From assembly GCA_947628455.1 (NCBI GenBank), contig CANQZY010000001.1, positions 128,124-192,123 on the forward strand: a DNA stretch of 64,000 nucleotides, given 5' to 3'. Below the pieces are notes generated by a model. That model was given only the letters and a program-made list of their open reading frames with translations, did not search any database and had not been told where the DNA came from. This document shows, one piece after another, positions 6,414 through 7,907 of this stretch (positions are counted from its first letter, which is position 1; every line of letters starts with the position of its first letter). The position numbers and the translations under genes were made by a program. The DNA is from an uncultured Methanobrevibacter sp. (GTDB lineage: Archaea; Methanobacteriota; Methanobacteria; Methanobacteriales; Methanobacteriaceae).

Positions 6414-7106
6414 ATGACGGATGTTAAAGCAGGAGTGGAATATAAAATTAATATTGGAGATAACTTTTTTTGGCTTGATAAAAAAAAATTTAATCTTCTA
6501 CAGAGTATTTTAGAGACAGGTTCCATCACTCATGCAGCGAAAGCTATTAATGTTTCATATAGAACTGCATTAAACTATATTGATAAAATTGAGAATAATC
6601 TAAACATCAAAATTGTAAGCACAAAAAAAGGAGGAAAAGGTGGTGGTGGAGGAACATCACTTACTGATGAAGGTTTTTCAATATTAAAAGAATGTAAAAA
6701 AATTAATGCAATAATGGAACTTCATAATGATGTTAATGAACTAGAAGTAATTGTTAAAGATATTGATGAGTCTAAAGGAATAATGAATATACAAATAAAA
6801 GACAATATTATTAAAGCACCTTTAAACAAAAATTATAGGATTGGAGATAAATTATTAATTCTTATTAGTTATGATAATATTTTCATAATGCTTAAAGCAC
6901 AAACTTCAAGTATTAGAAATATTCTTAAAGGTAAAATAGTAGAGATAAAATTAAAAGGCGAAATTATAAGAGTTAAAATAGATATTGGTGGAGTGTTTGT
7001 CTATTCTGATATCACAATATCTGCTGAAAAAGAACTAGATTTAAACATAGGAAAAGAAGTATATATTGCATTTAAAGCAATGTCTGTAGCTACTTTAAAA
7101 TTATAA
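6414..7106 (+). CDS. modE: ModE-family molybdate/tungstate-responsive regulator with TOBE-like C-terminus
   Basis: LLQSILETGSITHAAKAINVSYRTALNYID winged-helix and KKGGKGGGGGTSLTDEG motif of ModE; C-terminal KGKIVEIKLKGEIIRVKIDIGG TOBE-like repeat. Confidence 0.85.
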   Translation: MTDVKAGVEYKINIGDNFFWLDKKKFNLLQSILETGSITHAAKAINVSYRTALNYIDKIENNLNIKIVSTKKGGKGGGGGTSLTDEGFSILKECKKINAIMELHNDVNELEVIVKDIDESKGIMNIQIKDNIIKAPLNKNYRIGDKLLILISYDNIFIMLKAQTSSIRNILKGKIVEIKLKGEIIRVKIDIGGVFVYSDITISAEKELDLNIGKEVYIAFKAMSVATLKL

Positions 7107-7125
7107 CTAATATGGGGGTATAACT

Positions 7126-7326
7126 ATTTTAAAAATTGATGTAGATGAAACTAAATGCATTGCTTGTGGGAATTGTTATGATATTTGTCCTAAAGCAGCT
7201 AAAATATGGAAAATAACTAATGTTGCACATATATTAGATTTAAGATATTGTCATGTATGCACACTCTGTGCAATGGAATGTCCTGTTGATTGTATTACTA
7301 TAATAAGAAATGCTCCAGAGGAATAA
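7126..7326 (+). CDS. Small 2x[4Fe-4S] ferredoxin (probable non-canonical ATT start)
   Basis: Not in ORF track. Open frame [66 protein letters not shown]; two CxxCxxCxxxC motifs; GGGGGT Shine-Dalgarno-like sequence at 7114-7119, 6 nt before ATT. Confidence 0.8.
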
Positions 7327-7328
7327 AA

Positions 7329-7907
7329 ATGACAAGAGTCACTGAAACTTCAAGAAATACTTCAGAAACACAAATTTATATAAAAATGAATTTAGATGGA
7401 AATGGAAAATATAAAATCCAAACTGATGTTAATTTCTTTAAACACATGCTAGAATCATTTTCAAAACATTCACTTATAGATCTAGAAATAGAAGCTAAAG
7501 GAGACATTGAAATTGATGATCACCATACAGTAGAAGATATTGGAATATTATTAGGAGAAGCTTTTAATTTAGCTATTGGGGATAAAAAAGGGATTAACAG
7601 AATGGCCAATGCAATAGTCCCTATGGATGAATCAGTTGCTACTGTTGCAGTCGATATTAGTGGACGCAGCTATTGTAATATGAAATGCTCATTTAAAAAT
7701 CCTAAAATAGGAGATATGACTGCAGATGTTATTTTACATTTTTTTGAATCATTTGCAAATTCTGCTAAAATTAATATATATGGAAAAGTTGAAGGATTTA
7801 ATGATCATCACAAAGCAGAAGCTTTATTTAAAGCATTTGCTAAATCTTTAAAAGAAGCTATCAAAATTGAAAGAACAGATCTTCCTACTACAAAAGGAAT
7901 TCTTTAA
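7329..7907 (+). CDS. hisB: Imidazoleglycerol-phosphate dehydratase
   Basis: [51 protein letters not shown] motifs; start moved from track's 7290 to ATG 7329 because the upstream part overlaps the ferredoxin. Confidence 0.96.

Follow-up and report, generated by a model that had tools for sequence, protein, structure and literature searches.

Conserved genes that start with AUU are known in bacteria (infC), and archaea, which are not known to have IF3, are thought to use aIF1 instead for start fidelity. The E. coli infC gene encodes a fidelity factor and is autoregulated, and in Streptomyces a GTC start in sigR sets protein ratios (PMC5472188). AUU is exceedingly uncommon as a start: Belinky et al., who surveyed the genomes of bacteria and archaea, found that one of 61,358 ancestral AUG starts had changed to AUU, and non-AUG starts were associated with stronger Shine-Dalgarno motifs (PMC5622118). 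In archaea, aIF1 is reported to destabilize non-AUG complexes in Sulfolobus and to have a fidelity role in Pyrococcus (PMC6237735), and initiation at AUU is therefore expected to be weaker than at AUG. Moreover, loss of KsgA/Dim1 raises non-AUG initiation (PMC7897474).

Here, we discuss a locus of a methane-producing gut archaeon (Methanobrevibacter) at which comparison of related DNA makes it highly probable (roughly 90%) that a functional ferredoxin gene is translated from an AUU codon behind a strong Shine-Dalgarno sequence. As with infC, this would be a conserved gene starting with AUU; however, the gene is archaeal, its product is a ferredoxin, and an aIF1-family gene is present. It shares with sigR a rare noncanonical start that is kept within a genus; gene finders mis-annotate sigR and would be expected to do so here, but the sigR codon is GTC, sigR is bacterial, and its role in setting protein ratios has been demonstrated. 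The literature searched, which covers few subscription journals, yielded no description of an archaeal gene with a conserved AUU start; this is not proof of novelty.

A ferredoxin frame between modE and hisB

The window, that is, the whole stretch of 64,000 nucleotides analyzed here, carries on its forward strand an uninterrupted frame of 66 codons plus a TAA stop (7126..7326). Upstream lies a gene for a ModE-like regulator (6414..7106) with a winged HTH and a TOBE/Mop domain (Pfam HTH_1 and TOBE matches), which falls under the cut-off of the TIGR00637 ModE_repress model (E 2.4e-23). Downstream is an ORF (7329..7907) that, from its sequence, we take to be hisB, encoding imidazoleglycerol-phosphate dehydratase. 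The frame opens after a TAA at 7108-7110 and closes with the TAA at 7324-7326, and the hisB ATG at 7329 lies 2 nt past this stop. The coordinates, sequence, and arithmetic given for the frame in the initial annotation are correct.

The frame contains both C-x2-C-x2-C-x3-C cluster motifs in full (7156..7191 and 7249..7284), and none of the eight cysteines varies in an alignment of 19 proteins. As first described, the earliest in-frame canonical start lies inside the second cluster: it is the ATG at 7273, in CAMECP, and no ATG, GTG, or TTG precedes codon 50. The gene is absent from the standard ORF listing of the window. Gene finders usually accept ATG, GTG, and TTG only, and they are therefore expected to miss this gene, as well as the N-termini of the other genes discussed below.

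The frame matches Pfam Fer4 with an E-value of 3.8e-11 (42.7 bits, cut-off 21.1) and also passes the Fer4_21 cut-off (36.3 bits versus 35). A protein search identified approximately 60 orthologs within the genus, with E-values down to 4e-40; most genomes of the genus contain one, as do most of the order's genera. In the clade of the window, dN/dS is about 0.01-0.07 (dN 0.02-0.07, dS 0.9-2.4), with third codon positions taking most of the substitutions; in more distant smithii-side pairs, the ratio rises to about 0.3. A chance open frame is excluded because of the Fer4 match, the orthologs in the same genus, and the low dN/dS of the window clade. A canonical-start paralog that could act as a stand-in was considered and rejected: the second-best ferredoxin-like match within the genome is only 44% identical.

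The ferredoxin itself is an already known kind of protein, most likely a soluble electron carrier. It resembles the Fer4/Fer4_21 dicluster ferredoxins in its two motifs and in scoring over the Pfam cut-offs, but it is a stand-alone protein of 66 residues with its own signature (KIW..., CHVCTxCA) and a near-constant modE-hisB linkage. It does not reach the cut-off of any NCBIfam model listed, including those for membership in the PorD/KorD delta subunits (40.2 bits versus 120 for NF040684 and 38.2 versus 60.05 for TIGR02179). The nearest solved relatives are the polyferredoxins FwdF and MvhB, and an AlphaFold model is of low confidence (mean pLDDT 52.8). One contig, filed under an Erysipelotrichaceae MAG (L090), carries a Methanobrevibacter-type ferredoxin that is 80% identical and is probably mis-binned.

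The start codon in related Methanobacteriales

An alignment of this locus in related Methanobacteriales, as proposed in the initial annotation, was made from 103 orthologous copies, with the flanking DNA aligned on the first cysteine. The ModE-like gene lies 5′ and hisB 3′ of the ferredoxin gene in nearly all of these loci. At the column of window position 7126, ATG is found in 62 copies, ATT in 32, ATA in four, TTG in three, and ATC and GTG in one each; no other codon occurs at this column among the 103 copies. In some copies (for example those with ATG CCG TTG CAG, L184, and the distant outgroups), the start is one codon off and the adjacent start-type codon was counted. The ATT of the window is hence the positional homolog of the ATG, GTG, or TTG of its relatives. 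It recurs in 31 further copies, including those of the three closest relatives (identity 88-91%) and of four single-contig genomes, G002, G007 (1,853,160 bp), G083, and G089 (2,937,203 bp). These data strongly support the original proposal that the frame is a genuine ferredoxin gene, started at ATT after a ribosome-binding sequence. Of the 37 copies with ATT, ATA, or ATC (AUH), 30 lack any canonical start in the interval from the upstream in-frame stop to the first cysteine. Retention of this unusual start in dozens of related species makes it very probable that the gene is genuine and functional.

The codons at this column also argue against an ordinary hydrophobic residue, since other Leu and Val codons would then be expected and, in what are small numbers of related rows, none was seen besides TTG and GTG. 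In G030, for comparison, TTG accounts for 23% of the codons used for Leu, and GTG for 10% of those used for Val.

The history of the start codon was followed on a tree built from the ModE and HisB proteins, leaving the ferredoxin out (a quick tree with long branches). The start-codon types cluster on this tree, and six changes between AUH and canonical starts are enough to account for them. The outgroups (TTG, ATG) and the rows that branch early have canonical starts, AUH predominates among the Methanobrevibacter-like rows, and one large clade within the genus of the window has ATG. The simplest rooted reading would be a single gain deep in the family, in the Methanobrevibacter-like radiation, after which most lineages kept AUH and several became canonical again; parsimony alone cannot fix the direction.

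Shine-Dalgarno pairing and a model for initiation

The 3′ end of the 16S rRNA in the window genome reads ...GGATCACCTCC. The sequence GGGGGT at 7114..7119, six bases before the ATT at 7126..7128, is in register with this end and conforms to the arrangement GGAGGU-GAU-NNN-start that describes the AUH copies, in which G is found at position -9 in 37 out of 37. The canonical-start orthologs have the same profile and register. A Shine-Dalgarno sequence is accordingly found at a working distance from a codon that is homologous in position to canonical starts. With kinship ignored, the median predicted duplex energy is stronger for the AUH copies than for the ATG orthologs (-9.3 versus -7.8 kcal/mol; Mann-Whitney p 3e-5). 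An Rfam search upstream of the ferredoxin gene gave no match to an RNA element.

These results suggest a model in which pairing of GGGGGU with the 16S rRNA 3′ end would set the AUU in the ribosomal P site, where the initiator Met-tRNA would accept it despite the mismatch at the third position. The protein would then begin M-L-K-I-D-V-D, as in its AUG-initiated relatives. In this model, the strong Shine-Dalgarno sequence likely compensates for the weakness of AUU as a start codon.

Several factors that might bear on start selection were considered. Translational coupling to modE is not obligatory, as the spacing between the two genes in AUH carriers is too varied, from about 13 to more than 200 nt (474 nt in L204, which has a partial modE match). 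Loss of KsgA/Dim1 was rejected as a cause, KsgA/Dim1 being present in 10 of 10 genomes tested, and so was loss of aIF1: an aIF1-family gene is found in the window genome (G000), G007, and G089. As a separate observation, a SUI1 (aIF1) match is present in the complete genomes and absent in G016, G022, G023, and other rather complete drafts of the genus, which may reflect either a gap or divergence.

Other genes with probable AUH starts

To what extent are such starts used elsewhere? When 492,845 bp of G030 were compared with 1.5 Mb from G007, covering 443 orthologous frames, the ferredoxin gene and two more genes had a conserved N-terminus, a Shine-Dalgarno sequence, and no usable canonical start. 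This corresponds to 3/443, or roughly 0.7%, a rough figure obtained without a proper control. The false candidates in the first survey were tRNA-like frames and conserved 5′ regions, and a tally of codons made with stricter rules left too few counts for statistics.

One of the two genes is Dus-like (Pfam Dus). In many genomes of several genera, it has ATT, ATA, or ATC ahead of AAA GTN, with GCN CCN ATG GCN further on, and an in-frame TAA directly precedes the ATT or ATA in G007, G002, G016, G046, and the window genome. In the copy of the window genome (L370, G000:C12 at about 712) and in L356, L358, L362, and L369, the ATT or ATA is the only possible start, the next ATG being part of the conserved APMAG motif. 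The other is a stand-alone coaB, which is split from coaC in this genus and, judging from open-frame lengths, fused to it in most other genera. It has ATT or ATC in about 20 of the 30 loci read; this case is less firm because its Shine-Dalgarno sequence is weaker. In the coaB loci L343 (G000:C10) and L323-L352, a canonical start is mostly missing and ATT or ATC stands at the expected place. In the window genome, ATT stands at the putative start of both of these conserved genes.

Two weaker candidates are gatB and an adhesin-like gene. For gatB (G030:C1, minus strand, frame g030|-|312457) and its G007 counterpart, GGAGGAATTATT precedes ATT AGT GTN AAT ATG, and this strong Shine-Dalgarno sequence points at the ATT and not at the nearby ATG. 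The adhesin-like protein, which has a signal peptide (L229, G030:C1 at about 155550), seemingly starts with ATA in G030 and ATT in G007, behind GGGGGTGA.

Collectively, the same genomes appear to use AUU, AUA, or AUC in at least two other genes, which suggests that AUH starts are tolerated in this order when a good Shine-Dalgarno sequence precedes them.

Alternative explanations

The alternative that fares best agrees that the AUU is the start, and holds that it is a regulatory device like that of bacterial infC, making ferredoxin synthesis sensitive to aIF1 or to the state of the cell. A weak codon kept over many genera suggests that it is not merely deleterious, and infC and sigR are precedents (PMC5472188). 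However, several lineages have ATG, TTG, or GTG instead, the product is not an initiation factor, and the same codon type is found at the starts of unrelated genes. In addition, weak codons go with stronger Shine-Dalgarno sequences, a pattern that agrees better with tolerance and compensation. An infC-like role is possible but not needed to account for these data, and we regard it as unlikely.

It is considerably less probable that translation starts at another codon, for example at ATA 7120 or at an Ile codon lying one or two codons 5′ of the column, which would give a slightly longer protein. Some ATT carriers (L009, L185, and L203) do carry another ATT one or two triplets 5′ of the column, but the alternative codons lie 0-3 nt from the Shine-Dalgarno sequence and are not conserved, whereas the column at 7126 is ATN, GTG, or TTG in every ortholog. 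Moreover, in L209 a stop codon directly precedes the ATA at the start column.

The initial annotation also raised the possibility of a homopolymer error, a strain variant, or slippage, in which a sixth G or a +1 shift joins the ATG at 7112 to the ferredoxin frame. One more G would indeed give ATG GGG GGT ATA ACT ATT in frame, and the assembly that contains the window is a draft, 84% complete. This reading is nevertheless very improbable, for the three closest relatives, G007, and others have ATT at the column and no ATG before the G-run, and almost none of the other ATT carriers has an ATG in the place where the window has one. Apart from the window, with its leader TATGGGGG, most ATT carriers lack an ATG within the 15 nt that precede the start; any that is present is out of frame and not common to all sister species, with the exception of the ambiguous L195, in which an ATG lies in frame two codons 5′ of the column. 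The G-run varies from two to five Gs across the ATT carriers and fits the Shine-Dalgarno register, that is, it is the Shine-Dalgarno element rather than a site of error or slippage.

Finally, a decaying remnant that has lost its start would explain the missing canonical codon, but it is the least credible reading given the eight invariant cysteines, the low dN/dS, the intact stop, and the operon position kept across the order.

Implications for start selection in Methanobacteriales

Initiation of the ferredoxin gene at AUU behind a strong Shine-Dalgarno sequence hence stands as the preferred reading. A broader proposal, for which we see the odds as evenly balanced, is that AUU, AUA, and AUC are regular and evolutionarily stable starts for a small set of conserved genes in Methanobacteriales (about 0.5-1%), made usable by strong Shine-Dalgarno sequences. 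In this scenario, start selection would be more permissive than in the archaea studied so far, and part of the proteome would be missing from databases or truncated in them. The species in which the ferredoxin gene is expected to be missed include major methanogens of the human gut and the rumen. An AUU, AUA, or AUC start kept over many archaeal genera offers a natural means of testing how strictly archaea select their starts, and whether Shine-Dalgarno strength trades off against codon strength.
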